NCBI GenBank assembly: GCA_944326465.1
Contig: CALVEB010000012.1
Coordinates: 1-59,837 of the forward strand
DNA length: 59,837 bases
Direction: 5' to 3'
Source: Candidatus Gastranaerophilales bacterium
Lineage (GTDB): Bacteria > Cyanobacteriota > Vampirovibrionia > Gastranaerophilales > Gastranaerophilaceae
Under the pieces are notes generated by a model. That model was not told where the DNA came from and ran no database searches. It saw only the letters and a program-made list of their open reading frames with translations. This document shows positions 1 through 59,837 of this stretch, piece after piece. Within the stretch, counting starts at the first letter, position 1. Each line of letters begins with the position of its first letter. The position numbers and the translations under genes were made by a program.

Positions 1-423
1 ACTGACTTTGCTGCAAATACAGCAATAAATACATGTGATGACACAACATACGACCCAAATGGTTCAGCAAATTCATATTGTGCAAATAATTATTGGGCAG
101 GAGCAATAAAAGCATGTAAAGATAAAGGCATGGAATTACCGACGAGAGCCCAATTGGCACAATTAGCAAGCAATCTATACGTAGATAGCAGCGGCAATGA
201 AGTAACAATAGGAGCGAACGAAAACAAAAGTAACCTAAAAGTAAAGGACGAATACAAAGATAACCCTCCACTTACTCTTGGCTACGACTACTGGTCCAGT
301 GAGGAGTACGGTGCGAATAACGCGTACCACCGGTACTTCCGCACTTCCTACACGTACGGCAATGACACTGGCTGGAACGCCAAGGACAGCAGCCGCCGCC
401 GCGCTATATGTGTGTCGAACTAA
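1..423 (+). CDS. Pilin-like DGR target protein, 3' part (variable C-terminal FISUMP/DUF1566-like domain)
   Basis: The reading frame is open from the first base of the window to the TAA at 421-423, so the N-terminus lies outside. The visible 140 residues match the C-terminal half of the complete paralogue at 57600-58712: a Cys-containing stretch (CANNYWAGA, ACKDKGMELPT), then AQLAQLASNLY, and finally YWSSEE...RAICVSN. This resembles FISUMP/DUF1566 (C-type-lectin-like) tails. The last 45 codons are a variable repeat of the DGR template at 10073-10208. By homology the missing part should carry a type IV prepilin leader, making this a surface or pilus protein. The tail is probably the ligand-binding face; the ligand is unknown. 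Confidence is high for the target role and lower for the pilin nature, because the N-terminus is not seen. Confidence 0.88.
   Translation, partial: TDFAANTAINTCDDTTYDPNGSANSYCANNYWAGAIKACKDKGMELPTRAQLAQLASNLYVDSSGNEVTIGANENKSNLKVKDEYKDNPPLTLGYDYWSSEEYGANNAYHRYFRTSYTYGNDTGWNAKDSSRRRAICVSN
276..411 (+). repeat. DGR variable repeat VR1
   Basis: This segment aligns without gaps to the template repeat at 10073-10208 (minus strand), 136 bp each. I count 21 differences, and every one falls on an adenine of the template: for example AAC becomes GAC, TAC, CAC, CGC, GGC, GCC or AGC. No non-A position differs. Most changes hit asparagine codons, so residues vary while the scaffold (YWSSEE, RAIC) stays fixed. 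Adenine-specific change is the hallmark of DGR mutagenic retrohoming. Confidence 0.96.
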
Positions 424-447
424 GAGGCCAGAAGCCTCTTAGTTCGA
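415..447 (+). repeat. Perfect stem-loop after VR1 (DGR target hairpin candidate)
   Basis: A 14-bp perfect inverted repeat (tcgaactaagaggc / gcctcttagttcga) has a 5-nt loop, and its left arm contains the stop codon. It begins 4 bp after the VR. Known DGR targets carry a hairpin or cruciform just after the VR that aids homing. The equivalent hairpin follows VR2 and, shorter, VR3. No T-run follows directly, so a terminator role is less likely. The template repeat lacks it. Confidence 0.8.
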
Positions 448-448
448 A

Positions 449-7964: not shown

Positions 7965-8205
7965 CAAGGCAATAAGGGATTAAGGGAATATGGGAATAAG
8001 TGCATTAATAATTATTTAAAAGTTTACTTAAATCAATAAAGCTATATCACTTATTCCCTTGTCTTGGATTTGCTCCACGCTCGCAGAGTTTCGCCTGTTG
8101 TGCTTATGCACAAGTCGGCTCAATCTGCTCGCTATCCGGATTTGCTCACTTCGTTCGCGCCATCCGTACGCAAATCCGCTATTGCCCTATTTCCTTATTC
8201 TCCTT
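7965..8205. repeat. GGGAATAAGG repeats and ~150-bp repeat module
   Basis: The gap between the 82-residue gene and yceD contains a GGGAATAAGG-like tract (7970-8000), then a module (~8049-8200) running from cttattccc-tgtcttggatttgctcc to caaatccgctattgccc. The module is an inverted relative of ~21754-21899, with a similar end order but a different middle. It holds small palindromic pieces (gcttatgcacaag, cacttcgttcgcg). No gene is supported. Confidence 0.65.
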
Positions 8206-8541: not shown

Positions 8542-9336
8542 TTATACTGCAACTTTCATTGTGTTTGCAATAATTTCATTAAAGCTGTCAGCTTTGAGTG
8601 ATGCACCGCCTACTAATGCACCGTCAATGTCAGATTTTGACATTTGTTCAGCAATAGTGGAAGGTTTTACAGAACCGCCGTAAAGGATTCTGATAGCATC
8701 TGCAGCATCAGCACCTGCAACATCTTTAACAACACTTCTAATCATTGCAATTACTCTGTTTGCTTCATCGCTGTCACAAGTTTTACCTGTTCCGATAGCC
8801 CAGATTGGCTCATAAGCGATAACTGATTTAGCTACATCTTCAGAAGAAATACCGGATAAAGCCGCACGGATTTGAGATGCGATGTGTTCATCCGTAACAC
8901 CAGATTCTCTTTGCTCAAGAGTTTCGCCGCAGCAGATAATCGGAATTAAGCCGCCTGCTAAAATTGCTTTTGCTTTTTTGTTAATCATTTCATCAGTTTC
9001 TGAGAAGTATTGTCTTCTTTCTGAGTGGCCGATGATTACATAAGAACAGCCTGCATCTTTTACCATTTCAACAGAAACTTCACCGGTGTAAGCACCTGAA
9101 TTTTCCCAGTGGCAGTTTTGAGCCGCGATATTAATTCTGTTGCCGCCGCATCCACAGTCACATTTTTCAGCGTGCACTGCTGATAATGATGTGAAAGTCG
9201 GCGCAATGATTACTGTCGGTAAATCTTTTGCACTGTAATCTTTTACAAATGATTTAATACCTTCAAATAAAGCTTCAGCATCTGCTCTTAACAGATTCAT
9301 TTTCCAGTTTCCTGCGATAATTGGTTTTCTTGACAT
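8542..9336 (-). CDS. tpiA: Triose-phosphate isomerase
   Basis: Interconverts dihydroxyacetone phosphate and glyceraldehyde 3-phosphate. It has 264 residues with GNWKMN at the N-terminus, the catalytic His in IIGHSERRQYF (~102), the catalytic Glu in AYEPIWAIGTGKT (~178) and the phosphate loops YGGSVKP and GGASL. A short Cys-rich insert, EKCDCGCGGN (~57-66), precedes the AAQNCHW strand; I know of no such insert in standard enzymes. It is downstream of avd on the same strand but separated from it by a terminator. Confidence 0.96.
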   Translation of the reverse strand: MSRKPIIAGNWKMNLLRADAEALFEGIKSFVKDYSAKDLPTVIIAPTFTSLSAVHAEKCDCGCGGNRINIAAQNCHWENSGAYTGEVSVEMVKDAGCSYVIIGHSERRQYFSETDEMINKKAKAILAGGLIPIICCGETLEQRESGVTDEHIASQIRAALSGISSEDVAKSVIAYEPIWAIGTGKTCDSDEANRVIAMIRSVVKDVAGADAADAIRILYGGSVKPSTIAEQMSKSDIDGALVGGASLKADSFNEIIANTMKVAV

Positions 9337-9486: not shown

Positions 9487-9858
9487 TTAAACACTTCCTG
9501 CTGCATTCTCAGCAACAACCGACATTGCTGCCAGCCACCCCTGAGACTGCTTGGCAATGGAAGAAGTTTTTTCTATAAAAGCGCAGTAACGCGCCTGGGG
9601 CAAAATTCTTAAATCAAATGATATTCGTAAAAACAAATTAAGGAACTGAACATGCTCCTGTATGGACAAAATAAATTCTTTCTTGTCCTTTGCACTGTTT
9701 GCACGATATATATCAACGAGGAGATCAACAATATGAAGCTGTATCTTTTCACCCAGCGAAAACTTGAACTCTCTCGGAAAATCTTTTGTTGAATGCATAA
9801 GCTCCAGCAGTAAATCGTATGTTGTTTTATAAATAGGTAAGTGATGATATTGTGCCAT
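9487..9858 (-). CDS. avd: DGR accessory variability determinant (Avd)
   Basis: A protein of 123 residues that matches the Avd pattern: HLPIYKTTYDLLLEL at the start, FPREFKFSLGEKI (~29-41), then VDLLVDIYRANSA (~48) and an amphipathic C-terminal helix ending SQGWLAAM. In DGRs Avd is a pentameric four-helix-bundle protein that binds the reverse transcriptase and template RNA and is needed for mutagenic cDNA synthesis. It lies about 210 bp downstream of the template repeat on the same strand. The ATG has tgggga upstream. The related 23S-rRNA-IVS (S23) family shares the fold, but the adjacent template decides for Avd. No reverse transcriptase gene accompanies it. Confidence 0.9.
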   Translation of the reverse strand: MAQYHHLPIYKTTYDLLLELMHSTKDFPREFKFSLGEKIQLHIVDLLVDIYRANSAKDKKEFILSIQEHVQFLNLFLRISFDLRILPQARYCAFIEKTSSIAKQSQGWLAAMSVVAENAAGSV

Positions 9859-10018
9859 AAATCCCCACTTTTAATCAATTCGTGCTTTATGTAAATTTAT
9901 ATATAATTAATATTCAGAATATCTGACATTTAACAAAGATAAATTTACCACCTTAAAAGTAAAAAGTCAAGCTGATTAATGATAATTACATAAAAAAAAT
10001 AGGCCGAATGGCTAATAT

Positions 10019-10048
10019 AAAAAACGGGATTGCATTAAACACAATCCC
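10019..10048 (-). terminator. Terminator of the template-repeat RNA
   Basis: The stem gggattg / caatccc with a 9-nt loop is followed on the minus strand by a T-run (gtttttt). It lies about 25 nt past the template repeat and before avd. This implies that the template RNA can be made as a short separate transcript. Confidence 0.7.
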
Positions 10049-10072
10049 TGAATTTTCTATTTATCTCCCGAG

Positions 10073-10208
10073 ACATATAGCGCGGTTGTTGCTGTTGTTC
10101 TTGTTGTTCCAGTTATTGTCATTGCCGTTCGTGTTGGAAGTGTTGAAGTTCCGGTTGTACGCGTTATTCGCATTGTTCTCCTCACTGGACCAGTAGTTGT
10201 AGCCAAGA
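10073..10208 (-). repeat. DGR template repeat (TR)
   Basis: A 136-bp adenine-rich segment (minus strand) that reads as the C-terminal codons of the pilin-like targets but with 19 Asn codons (for example SSEENNANNAYN, WNNKNNSNN). It contains 52 A. VR1 and VR2 each differ from it at 21 sites, all A. Because most are AAY codons, random change at A gives NNY codons and never a stop; the one AAG (Lys) codon is the exception. No start codon, leader or complete domain surrounds it, so it is a template and not a gene. It ends in cgcgctatatgt, shared with the VRs, and then diverges (initiation-of-homing boundary). Confidence 0.96.
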
Positions 10209-10211
10209 ACG

Positions 10212-10382
10212 ACGGATTCTAAATCGATAAAAAAGACTCTTTCCCAATTACCGACCTCCGTTTCCGGAGCTTTGCTTGATGTCAGGCACCAAGCACCGCC
10301 GACGAGATAAATAAAGAGTACACCCCGCTATACCGTAGCATAGACAGGCTCTGACTCGTACTGTCTTTATGACAGCTTTTTT
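10212..10382 (-). ncRNA. Structured leader of the template RNA or separate small RNA, unidentified
   Basis: No protein frame is supported. On the minus strand the stretch folds well: ctgtc-ataaa-gacag, ctccg-gaaa-cggag (GAAA tetraloop) and gcttg...caagc are clear stems, and gcggggtgtactc sits between. It lies between a plausible minus-strand promoter and the TR, so it may be the 5' part of the template RNA. On the plus strand, ctgtc-tttat-gacag followed by six T (10361-10382) would be a terminator, so a plus-strand small RNA is an alternative. I matched it to no known RNA family. Confidence 0.45.
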
Positions 10383-10411
10383 AGCATAGCATACCGTGCC
10401 CAATTCTTCAA
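10383..10411 (-). promoter_or_regulatory. Candidate promoter for the template RNA
   Basis: On the minus strand TTGAAG (10411-10406) and TATGCT (10388-10383) stand 17 nt apart, close to the sigma-70 consensus. Transcription would begin near 10376, run through the structured leader and the TR, and stop at 10019-10048. It is a sequence match only. Confidence 0.45.
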
Positions 10412-10470: not shown

Positions 10471-11904
10471 TTACGCTCTCCCATAAATATCCGCATATCT
10501 GATAATATCATCCTCTGAGAGCAAATCACCCTTTTGAACCTCAATAATTTCTAAATCTTCATCATAAGGGTTTTCGAGTGAATGTATTGCCTTAACAGGA
10601 ATATCAATACTGTGCTCCGGACTCAAAATCATTTCCTTACTTTCTAAACTAACTTTTGCCATGCCTGTCAGCACAACCCAGTGTTCGCTGCGATGGTTGT
10701 GGGATTGGACAGAAAGCTTTTGCCCCGGATTTACATGGATAATTTTTGTCAAAAATCCTTTTCCGTACGCAATAACTGTATAATATCCCCACGGACGCAC
10801 CACCGGTTTGTTTAACTCAGGAGTGACAACTACTACTTCTTCCTGTGTAGTTGCAGGAGCAGTGTCATTTGTTAAAGAGGCACCGGATTTATTTTCTATC
10901 TTGTCTAAAAACTGCTGTGCAGCATTTTCAGGACTTGACGCATTAATAATTGCACGGACAACCGCAATGCGTTTTGCGCCGTGTTGAATCACTTCACTCA
11001 CATTATCCAGATCAATTCCGCCAATTGCAAACGCAGGAATATCAATATTTTTACTTACCCATTCAACATATTCAAGTCCAACGGATTTTCGTCCGGGTTT
11101 GGTCGGAGTGGTAAACACAGGCCCCATACCAATATAATCAGCGCCATCCTGAACCGCTTTTTGTGCTTGTTCAGGAGCATGTGTGGAAACCCCTATTATA
11201 GCGTTATTTCCAAGAATTTTCCTTGCAGATGCGACATCCATATCATCCTGTCCGAGGTGAACCCCGTCGGCCTCAAGTATTGCCGCAATATCAACCCTGT
11301 CGTTTACAATAAATGTCGCATTGTATTCAGCGCAAAGGAGTTTTATTTTTTTGCCGAGTTCTATTATTCTATTTGCCGGCATGTTCTTTTCGCGCAACTG
11401 TAAAATATCAACACCGCCTTTAAGAGCAGAAGCAACTGCATCTAAAAACGCATCGTCAGAATCAAATTTATCTGAATTTGTGACTAAATAAAGTTTTTTA
11501 TTGCCTAAAATTAACTTGTTATATTTTTCTTTTAATTTATCCCACATAATTTTCTCCAGCGTGTAAGATTTGTAGCGCAAATTTTCAAAAGTAGAAGCAT
11601 GTTCCGGTGCATACTCCGCAAGAACCCTCAAAACCTGCTGCAAACGTTTAATATTTGCCTTAAAAATATTTTCAATATCAGTACGGAAATCAGGATTTTT
11701 TATTGTTGTTCCGATATCATTTTCAGTATCTCTTGCACTTAACAGTGCGTCGTAATCATGCTCCTGCAGGGCATTAAGTTCATGTCTTATAAGTTTAAGT
11801 GTTTGAGAGGATTCTCTATCATCGAGCAGAAACCTTGAAATCTCTTCCAGCACTCTCAAAGCTTCTGTTCCTCTGTTTAAATTTGCGTCTATAATTCTTT
11901 TCAT
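10471..11904 (-). CDS. thiE: Fusion: ThiD2-like domain, thiamine-phosphate synthase, cupin (mannose-6-P isomerase type II C-terminal)
   Basis: A protein of 477 residues with three parts. Residues 1-~120 (MKRIIDANLNRGTEALRVLEE) are the N-terminal domain found on cyanobacterial ThiE. Residues ~135-345 are a complete ThiE TIM barrel, with DILQLREKNM, FIVNDRVDIA, DGVHLGQDD, GMGPVFTTPTKPG and FAIGGI; it joins HMP-PP and thiazole phosphate to make thiamine phosphate. Residues ~365-477 are a cupin like the C-terminus of ManC-type mannose-1-P guanylyltransferase/isomerase (RPWGYY, HRSEHWVVLTG, IPVKAIHSLEN). The linker is Thr/Ala-rich and the frame is continuous. The cupin's role here is unknown. Confidence 0.88.
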   Translation of the reverse strand: MKRIIDANLNRGTEALRVLEEISRFLLDDRESSQTLKLIRHELNALQEHDYDALLSARDTENDIGTTIKNPDFRTDIENIFKANIKRLQQVLRVLAEYAPEHASTFENLRYKSYTLEKIMWDKLKEKYNKLILGNKKLYLVTNSDKFDSDDAFLDAVASALKGGVDILQLREKNMPANRIIELGKKIKLLCAEYNATFIVNDRVDIAAILEADGVHLGQDDMDVASARKILGNNAIIGVSTHAPEQAQKAVQDGADYIGMGPVFTTPTKPGRKSVGLEYVEWVSKNIDIPAFAIGGIDLDNVSEVIQHGAKRIAVVRAIINASSPENAAQQFLDKIENKSGASLTNDTAPATTQEEVVVVTPELNKPVVRPWGYYTVIAYGKGFLTKIIHVNPGQKLSVQSHNHRSEHWVVLTGMAKVSLESKEMILSPEHSIDIPVKAIHSLENPYDEDLEIIEVQKGDLLSEDDIIRYADIYGRA

Positions 11905-57536: not shown

Positions 57537-57574
57537 ATTCCCTTAATTCCTCATTCCCTTATTCCCTTATTCCC
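57537..57574 (-). repeat. GGGAATAAGG-type direct repeats after VR2
   Basis: On the minus strand at least four imperfect copies of gggaataag follow the VR2 hairpin directly. This matches the VR1 locus, showing that homology between the two targets extends beyond the hairpin. Confidence 0.65.
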
Positions 57575-57609
57575 TTCGAACTAAGAGGCTTTGGGCCTCT
57601 TAGTTCGAA
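57575..57609 (-). repeat. Perfect stem-loop after VR2
   Basis: The 15-bp arms ttcgaactaagaggc / gcctcttagttcgaa with a 5-nt loop include the stop codon, equivalent to the VR1 hairpin with a different loop. It is just past the variable repeat on the coding strand, the expected place for a DGR homing hairpin. Confidence 0.8.
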
Positions 57610-58712
57610 ACACATATAGCGCGGAGGCCGCTGGTGTTCTTGTAGTACCAGCGATTGTCATTGCCGTCCGTGCGGGAAGCGCCGAAGCCCCGGTAGTACG
57701 CGGTATTCGCATTGTCCTCCTCACTGGACCAGTAGCTGTAGCCAAGAGTAAGTGGAGGATTATCTTTGTATTCGTCCTTTACTTTGAGTCCTGATTTATC
57801 TTCGTTGTATGCTATCTCTACTTCATTGCCGCTGCTATCTACGTAAAGATTGCTTGCTAGTTGTGCTAGTTGGGCTCTCGTAGGAAGTTCCATGCCTTTC
57901 TCTTGACAGCTTAATTTAGCACCTGCCCAATAGTTTGTAGAGCAATTACTTCCATGGTTTTGTTCCATATCTTCATATTCGCTGCCAGCGCAGGTATCTA
58001 TTGCGCGGTTTGCTTGGAATTCCGTTGACCAGCACATGTCACCTATCGGGTTATCGCAAGTGGAAAAGGCAACGCCTGAAGATAATTCAATATCTTTACC
58101 AACTCTATTCGGGCCTTTCTTTCCGTTTACATCTACCATGTATGCCATGCAAGATACTTGTGAACCTGTATCCTCTATTGGATCAGCATAAGGGCATTCC
58201 GGCTGGTATGCCATAATTACTGTTGTACCGTCTGCAACCACAAAGCTCATGGTATTTGTGTTAGTTTGCCATTCCTTTAATCCCATGCTTGATGCGGAAG
58301 TTAGAGTTTCTGTTTCTATGTCAAGAGGCGCATCGTCTTTACCTGTTGTTACGATTTTAGGTGAATAGCATTTGTTGATGTCATCCTTGTCGCATGTCTT
58401 AATAACTTTCATGTAGTTTTTGAAAGTATTCATGAAATCCTCAGTAGAATTGTGACCGGTCATGACACCGTCTACGTTCATGCGTCGGACGGTTTCCGTG
58501 AGTTTCTTTTCCCAGAGGTCTTTCGCAGTTTTCCATGCTGTCTCATTGTGGTTCTGGATAAGACCCGGTAATGTAAGTGCGGCAACGATGCCGATAACCG
58601 CAAGGGTGATGAGGACTTCGGCGAGAGTGAATGCTGCTTTAGCGGTCTCCAGAGTGTTGGTGCAGACCAGCCTGTCTTCAGCGAAAGTAAAAGCTAATTT
58701 GTAATTTGTCAT
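57600..58712 (-). CDS. Type IV pilin-like DGR target protein (complete)
   Basis: A protein of 370 residues. The start at 58712 (MTNYKLAFTF) is fixed by ggaggt 7 nt upstream; the longer frame starts on the RBS itself. Residues 28-50 (FTLAEVLITLAVIGIVAAL) form a class III prepilin N-terminal helix with Glu32 at position +5, so peptidase should cut at A27/F28. A helical middle region follows, then a Cys-rich FISUMP/DUF1566-like C-terminal domain ending in VR2. The first 27 residues contain a second, imperfect AFTFAE motif, as if a 60-nt piece had been inserted. The protein probably sits on a pilus or the cell surface. Divergent from the XRE gene. Confidence 0.9.
   Translation of the reverse strand: MTNYKLAFTFAEDRLVCTNTLETAKAAFTLAEVLITLAVIGIVAALTLPGLIQNHNETAWKTAKDLWEKKLTETVRRMNVDGVMTGHNSTEDFMNTFKNYMKVIKTCDKDDINKCYSPKIVTTGKDDAPLDIETETLTSASSMGLKEWQTNTNTMSFVVADGTTVIMAYQPECPYADPIEDTGSQVSCMAYMVDVNGKKGPNRVGKDIELSSGVAFSTCDNPIGDMCWSTEFQANRAIDTCAGSEYEDMEQNHGSNCSTNYWAGAKLSCQEKGMELPTRAQLAQLASNLYVDSSGNEVEIAYNEDKSGLKVKDEYKDNPPLTLGYSYWSSEEDNANTAYYRGFGASRTDGNDNRWYYKNTSGLRAICVSN
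57612..57747 (-). repeat. DGR variable repeat VR2
   Basis: A gap-free alignment to the template repeat (10073-10208) over 136 bp. I count 21 differences, all at template adenines (for example AAC to GAC, TAC, CGC, GGC, CTC and AGC; ACT to GCT). It differs from VR1 at many of the same codons, so the two targets carry separate rewrites. Confidence 0.96.
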
Positions 58713-58734
58713 AATCCTTACCTCCAATAATACT

Positions 58735-59296: not shown

Positions 59297-59325
59297 AAAA
59301 TTCTCTTAATCACTTAGTCACGTCC

Positions 59326-59348
59326 AACTAAGGGCTATGCCCTTAGTT
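59326..59348 (-). repeat. Stem-loop after VR3
   Basis: A 10-bp perfect stem (aactaagggc / gcccttagtt) with a 3-nt loop at the stop codon. It is shorter than the VR1 and VR2 hairpins and lies at the same place. Confidence 0.7.
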
Positions 59349-59837
59349 CGAAACACATATAGCGCGGAGGTTGCTGAGGTTCTTGTTGGTTTTGTACCAG
59401 TAACTGACCGTAGTGGACAAGAGCCGCCTGTACGCGCGATTTGCATCGACCTCCTCACTGGACCAGTAGGGGTAAGGAAGAGTAAGGGGAGGGTTAGCTT
59501 TGTATTCGTCCTTTACTTTTAGGCCTGAGTCTATTGTTTCGTTCGCACCTATGGTTATCTCTGTGCCGTCACTCTTTACATATAATTCACTCGCTAGTTG
59601 CGCCAGTTGGGCTCCTGTTGGTAATTCCATACCTTTATCCTTACACGCTTTTATCGCTCCTGCCCAGTAATTGGTTGAACAAAATTGATTATCTGTACCA
59701 TGTTTATCATATGTTGTATCACTACAGGTATCTATTGCAGTATTAGCAACAAAGTCAGTACTCCAGCACATGTCACCTATCGGGTTATCGCAAGTGGAAA
59801 AGGCTACACCTGAAGATAATTCAATATCTTTGCCAAC
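59343..59837 (-). CDS. Pilin-like DGR target protein, third copy (5' truncated by window)
   Basis: The frame is open to the window edge, where it begins VGKDIELSSGVAF on the minus strand, matching residues of the complete copy. The C-terminal FISUMP/DUF1566-like region includes CWSTDFVANTAIDTC, GMELPTGAQLAQLASELY and YWSSEEVDANRAY...RAICVSN. The tail carries VR3. Similar length and order to the other copies show a recently expanded target family. The prepilin leader lies outside. Confidence 0.88.
   Translation of the reverse strand, partial: VGKDIELSSGVAFSTCDNPIGDMCWSTDFVANTAIDTCSDTTYDKHGTDNQFCSTNYWAGAIKACKDKGMELPTGAQLAQLASELYVKSDGTEITIGANETIDSGLKVKDEYKANPPLTLPYPYWSSEEVDANRAYRRLLSTTVSYWYKTNKNLSNLRAICVSN
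59355..59480 (-). repeat. DGR variable repeat VR3 (not from the visible template)
   Basis: The first ~20 bp (cgcggaggttgctg...) and the codons YWSSEE...RAIC align with VR1 and VR2. The middle differs in length and at non-adenine bases, so the visible template cannot have produced it. The segment nearest the stop (aag-aac-ctc-agc-aac-ctc) differs from the template only at A positions, as expected if a second template with the same frame exists. Confidence 0.75.

Follow-up and report, generated by a model that had tools for sequence, protein, structure and literature searches.

The DGR of Bordetella phage BPP-1 keeps all of its parts together, namely mtd, avd, the template repeat (TR) and the reverse transcriptase (RT) gene brt. 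Its TR-to-VR changes are adenine-biased, and the variable region (VR) lies at the 3' end of the target gene, directly followed by a hairpin that is required for efficient retrohoming (PMC3240598). At the RNA level, a structured RNA located 3' of the TR recruits RT-Avd, while a motif in the avd mRNA halts copying (PMC12875486). Less compact systems have also been described. In Thiohalocapsa PB-PSB1, the available part of the published account describes incomplete loci, targets that fit a TR elsewhere, and DGR diversity observed in nature; activity in trans was proposed as the best explanation, with components supplied by one other DGR locus and targets linked to conflict systems (PMC10907252). 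Cyanobacterial DGRs have numerous CLec paralogs at remote sites, whose genes bear the VR at the 3' end, and a cyanobacterial RT-only locus was interpreted as a degraded cassette (PMC7517822).

Here, a DGR from a Candidatus Gastranaerophilales bacterium is described, starting from a 59,837-nucleotide contig (C12; GenBank CALVEB010000012.1), the whole of which is referred to as the window. Like BPP-1, it has a DGR RT, Avd and adenine-biased differences between TR and VR, with a 3'-terminal VR in the target and a hairpin directly behind it. Unlike BPP-1, the RT stands by itself, avd and TR occur together at two loci, the pilin-like targets number about 35, and a conserved structured RNA element lies 5' of the TR, which is followed by a terminator-like stem. 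Remote targets are shared with the cyanobacterial systems; the RT-only locus, however, holds the single DGR RT and is accompanied by live-looking VRs. The difference from Thiohalocapsa is that no avd or TR accompanies the sole RT, and that the targets are pilin-like. The closest known relative is a cassette in two genomes of the same family (G071 and G177), where RT, a target with VR, avd and TR lie in cis; it has the closest RT (64-65% identity) and the closest avd, but only 6-7 pilin-like target homologs were found there. A limited literature search returned no papers on DGRs in Gastranaerophilales, Melainabacteria or Vampirovibrio.

The avd-template locus

The first avd-template locus occupies the minus strand of the window and consists of the following features:

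9487..9858 (-): avd1, accessory variability determinant, 123 aa (Pfam bAvd, NCBIfam DivGenRetAVD, kinship to the cis avd of G071/G177)
10026..10048 (-): terminator-like stem and T run between TR1 and avd1 (pattern scan)
10073..10208 (-): TR1, template repeat, 136 nt, 52 A (32 VRs genome-wide with A-biased differences)
10230..10352 (-): conserved pre-TR RNA element with two covarying hairpins and a GGGwGTGC...ATCwCGT core (alignment, covariation counts, covariance model)

Read in the direction of transcription, the RNA element comes first, followed by TR1, the terminator-like stem and avd1; the TR1 RNA probably ends at the stem. The Avd accessory protein expected of a DGR is supplied by avd1 on the strength of its Pfam bAvd match (49.1 bits, cut-off 40); against NCBIfam DivGenRetAVD it scores 56 bits, below the cut-off of 80. 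A preliminary description of this DNA had placed the locus between tpiA and a thiE fusion and had noted the absence of any RT gene from the window. Both points hold: the neighbors are tpiA (8542-9336) and a ThiD2-ThiE-cupin fusion (10471-11904), and no RT was found in the window either by a whole-genome PF00078 search, which matches only contigs C9 and C49, or by tblastn with three DGR RTs as queries. What that description had missed is that the window also holds three diversified targets, at its two ends. The fusion on the minus strand at 10471-11904 is a single 477-aa protein combining ThiD2, thiamine phosphate synthase (ThiE) and a mannose-6-phosphate isomerase C-terminal cupin. The tpiA neighborhood was considered as an empty site for avd1-TR1 and set aside, as gene order differs in every sister species examined. 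With the pattern used, no TR1-like sequence was found in viral contigs.

The pre-TR element spans about 90 nt, comprises two hairpins and an invariant core, and lies upstream of TR1, of a second template (TR2, below) and of the TRs of relatives. Compensatory change is seen in 11 of 16 pairs, and none of 500 shuffles matched the covariation score. The covariance model matches avd/TR loci, including loci outside its training set, and hits the window once. Since Rfam gave no match in the window, the element is a candidate new RNA family. By analogy with BPP-1, where RNAs serve both in RT-Avd recruitment and in stopping the copying, either job is possible for the 5' element, which may recruit RT-Avd or end copying.

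Variable regions and pilin-like targets

A search of the genome with TR1 returned 32 VR-like sites, three of which lie in the window together with their genes and hairpins:

1..423 (+): target gene with VR C12a, 3' part only, cut by the contig start; paralog of P0001
276..411 (+): VR C12a, 21 A changes, non-A positions all identical to TR1
414..448 (+): post-VR inverted repeat after C12a, 15-bp stem, one mismatch
57574..57610 (-): post-VR inverted repeat after C12b, 16-bp stem, one mismatch
57600..58727 (-): type IV pilin-like target gene with VR C12b, 375 aa (N_methyl match)
57612..57747 (-): VR C12b, 21 A changes, non-A positions all identical to TR1
59323..59351 (-): post-VR inverted repeat after C12c, 13-bp stem, one mismatch
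59343..59771 (-): second target gene, with VR C12c, cut by the contig end
59355..59469 (-): VR C12c, older or drifted, 20 A and 13 non-A changes

When the 32 VRs are aligned to TR1, 684 of 1624 adenine cells (42%) are changed versus 154 of 2641 non-A cells (5.8%), which is the adenine bias that marks a DGR. In nine of the VRs every difference from TR1 is at an adenine, and each of these VRs has 14 to 27 changes. Changes fall in codon positions 1 and 2. Two window VRs match TR1 at all 84 of its non-A positions; the match is not a product of chance, since of 20 shuffled TRs even the best left 41 of the 84 unmatched.

The targets are type IV pilin-like paralogs. Except for a few at contig ends without a readable gene, the VRs sit at the 3' ends of these genes and mostly stop three codons before the stop codon. 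Of the 32 TR1 targets, 29 have a hairpin behind the VR, with stems of 10-17 bp versus 7-10 bp in BPP-1, so that the DGR hallmark of a 3'-terminal VR followed by a hairpin or cruciform is present. Members with an intact N-terminus carry a type IV prepilin motif (FTLAEVL), and every one of ten scanned targets matches the prepilin methylation model N_methyl. Single scores are near the cut-off (20.1-20.7 versus 21.2 bits), with the gene at 57600..58727 slightly below it at 20.1 bits. In ten targets of this genome, Pfam gave no match to a C-type-lectin-like variable domain. A homologous target in another genome of the order (G024) matches Lcl_C below the cut-off (E 4e-6), and the variable domain is probably lectin-like, though without proof. 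For one target a structure model was made and discarded for its low pLDDT of 43.

Several other features of the target set deserve record. At two VRs (L013 105-254 on C8 and L030 1576-1722 on C41) the match to TR1 extends beyond its usual end (CTCGGGAG), and the search used found no post-VR hairpin at either. Contig C30 bears identical VRs in two targets about 2.8 kb apart (L036 2145-2271 and 4948-5074), a sign of recent gene duplication. An intergenic repeat of about 120 bp (GCGGATTTGCGTACGGATGGCGCGAACGAAGTGAGCAAATCC...) is dispersed in both orientations, close to target genes and elsewhere; copies occur at 8060-8190 of the window, at about 4010-4130 of L041 and behind several VR targets.

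A solitary reverse transcriptase

The preliminary description proposed a genome-wide search for a DGR-clade RT, and this search found one, intact and alone on contig C9. The C9 protein scores 66.9 bits against PF00078. Its best PDB match, 8ub7, the BPP-1 enzyme, scores 140.8 bits against 41.3 for the runner-up, and both LPIGNLTSQ and YVDD are present. It is the only DGR-clade RT in this assembly. The other RT of the genome, on C49, was rejected as the missing partner on being identified as a Drt2 defence RT (NCBIfam 360 bits; PADLOC 407). This Drt2-type antiviral RT lies at L002 1135-2562, on a 5.3-kb contig.

Within the 35 kb examined around the C9 RT there is no avd, TR or pre-TR element, and no TR relic was found nearby. 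The gene is located mid-contig (the contig measures 83 kb) and is flanked by maf on one side and an unrelated gene (gene X) on the other. In two sister species maf and gene X directly adjoin each other without an RT, spaced by 58 bp in G002 and 12 bp in G003. The C9 RT is therefore a genuine single-gene insertion rather than an assembly accident, and this clean empty site makes misassembly of the solo RT unlikely. A second RT in a gap remains possible, as the assembly comprises 52 contigs, many of which break at target genes, and the C9 RT itself could be silent.

The search for further avd/TR loci, also proposed in the preliminary description, uncovered a second RT-less avd-template locus on contig C19, consisting of a pilin-like target, avd2 and TR2. 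Neither an RT nor an RT relic was found there. TR2 carries a pre-TR element of the TR1 type (88.2 bits with the covariance model) and has three VRs, of which one is free of non-A changes. The VR on C19 has 20 A and no non-A changes and that on C22 has 19 and 1, which suggests recent rewriting; the third has 17 and 14. Two other avd-like matches were dismissed: that on C7 is a 23S rRNA IVP four-helix protein (PF05635 123 bits versus bAvd 23.6), and that on C4 reaches only 14.6 bits.

Kinship and distribution in the order

In the RT tree, the C9 RT groups with G071/G177 and their kin (98 SH-aLRT). In the avd tree, avd1 falls with G071/G177/G024 at moderate support (90) and avd2 with G003/G065 (93). 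Because both the RT and avd1 are akin to G071/G177, whose parts are together, the RT and avd1-TR1 can be read as a former single cassette. Judged from these trees, they probably descend from one G071/G177-like cis cassette that was later split, and avd2-TR2 stems from a second, G003-like lineage. The RT belonging to the avd2 lineage (G003/G065 RT clade) is absent from this assembly.

Co-occurrence of RT and avd in related genomes, another check raised earlier, indicates that separation is the exception. Among 383 genomes of the order, an RT occurs in 41, avd in 43 and both in 34; in 31 of these 34 the two lie on one contig within about 2.5 kb. Adjacency of RT, avd and TR is thus usual in the order, if not essential, and is not met here, with the RT on C9 and avd-TR on C12 and C19. 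The remaining exceptions, G079 and G189, were rejected as further true splits, since both parts lie near contig ends and assembly breaks are probable. In the assemblies of G024, G133 and G083 no RVT_1 protein was found, though avd and the pre-TR element are present. G024 and G133 have local VRs without non-A changes over 80 and 60 nt, respectively. The G083 locus (L137 4107-4577) comes from an assembly of 30 contigs that is 99% complete, and no VR was found within the 8 kb fetched around it.

Four sister species (G001, G002, G004 and G005) have, at the thresholds used, neither a match to the C9 RT nor an avd. They nevertheless retain 35-65 pilin-like paralogs each, with 65 in one of them; the upkeep and origin of such repertoires without RT or avd are unexplained. 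In G002, 20 sampled VRs have the same design as in this genome, yet none is free of non-A drift versus 10 of 32 here (p = 0.008). Diversity at third codon positions of the VRs is 0.108 here versus 0.199 in G002. The 20 VRs from G002 were those that best matched a single query, and the reference for scoring them was their own consensus, so the comparison is indicative only. Within that limit, it fits RT loss followed by slow VR decay in G002 and recent activity in this genome.

A probable dispersed DGR acting in trans

With good confidence, avd1-TR1 can be regarded as part of a dispersed, recently active DGR that is served in trans by the solitary C9 RT. The parts, the adenine-biased VR differences, the intact RT and its solo insertion, the kinship of RT and avd, and the conserved RNA are observed; action in trans is inferred. 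That the same enzyme also serves TR2 is a further inference, held less firmly than that for avd1-TR1, and activity at present is likewise inferred, without strain series or reads. In the proposed mechanism, transcription of the minus strand would yield TR1 RNA together with its structured 5' element, and Avd1 would be produced from the next transcription unit. The C9 RT would copy TR1, and also TR2 of C19, in trans with errors opposite adenines. In about 35 pilin-like genes the cDNA would then replace the 3' end, and the constant 3' terminus of the VR and the hairpin directly after it would determine the site. The preliminary description had offered three options; an RT acting in trans and one RT serving several template loci are now favored jointly, while loss of the RT leaving a fossil is disfavored by the intact C9 RT and by VRs free of non-A changes for both TR1 (9/32) and TR2 (1/3).

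The alternative that retains most weight, although it is rather unlikely, is that the C9 RT serves avd1-TR1 only and that avd2-TR2 is a second DGR recently orphaned by loss of its RT. The G003/G065 ancestry of avd2, whose own RT clade is missing here, agrees with this, as do the small number of TR2 VRs and the drift in one of them. The nearly pure adenine changes on C19 and C22, however, point to recent rewriting, and TR1 and TR2 have the pre-TR element in common. A wholly fossil system, with VRs frozen through RT loss or silencing, appears improbable. Loss of RT and avd does occur in the genus, as the four sister species that keep only targets demonstrate, and about half of the VRs here have at least 4 non-A changes; against this stand the intact RT, the nine VRs without non-A change and third codon positions less diverse than in G002.

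It is harder still to credit an assembly artefact, in which the RT truly adjoins avd1-TR1 and was displaced by repeats. Contigs do often terminate in target genes, and the apparent splits in G079 and G189 are probably breaks of this sort. The RT, though, is far from any contig end, in flanks about 83% identical to the adjacent maf and gene X of G002/G003, and avd1-TR1 lies 9.5 kb inside its own contig between tpiA and thiE. Either an RT directly outside the locus, or genome-wide absence of RT together with frozen VRs, would have refuted the preliminary description. Neither applies: no RT adjoins the locus, the genome does encode one, and its VRs are not frozen.

Implications

The system remains a DGR; what is new is the complete separation of its only RT from all avd and TR, together with the extent and nature of the target set. 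Surveys that demand an RT next to a TR would overlook or misfile such systems. If action of the C9 RT in trans is true, a DGR enzyme would be fully uncoupled from avd and template in the chromosome while serving several templates and dozens of targets. How an RT recognizes a foreign template RNA, the role of the conserved 5' RNA element, and the benefit to the bacterium of about 35 diversifiable pilin-like proteins would all become testable, which DGRs of the cassette type do not permit. More tentatively, the DGR of this family may be a network rather than a cassette, in which a shared 5' RNA element lets one stand-alone RT serve templates from different DGR lineages. RT and avd may come and go while pilin repertoires of tens of genes persist, so that gain or loss of the RT would switch mutability on or off for this whole set of surface proteins.
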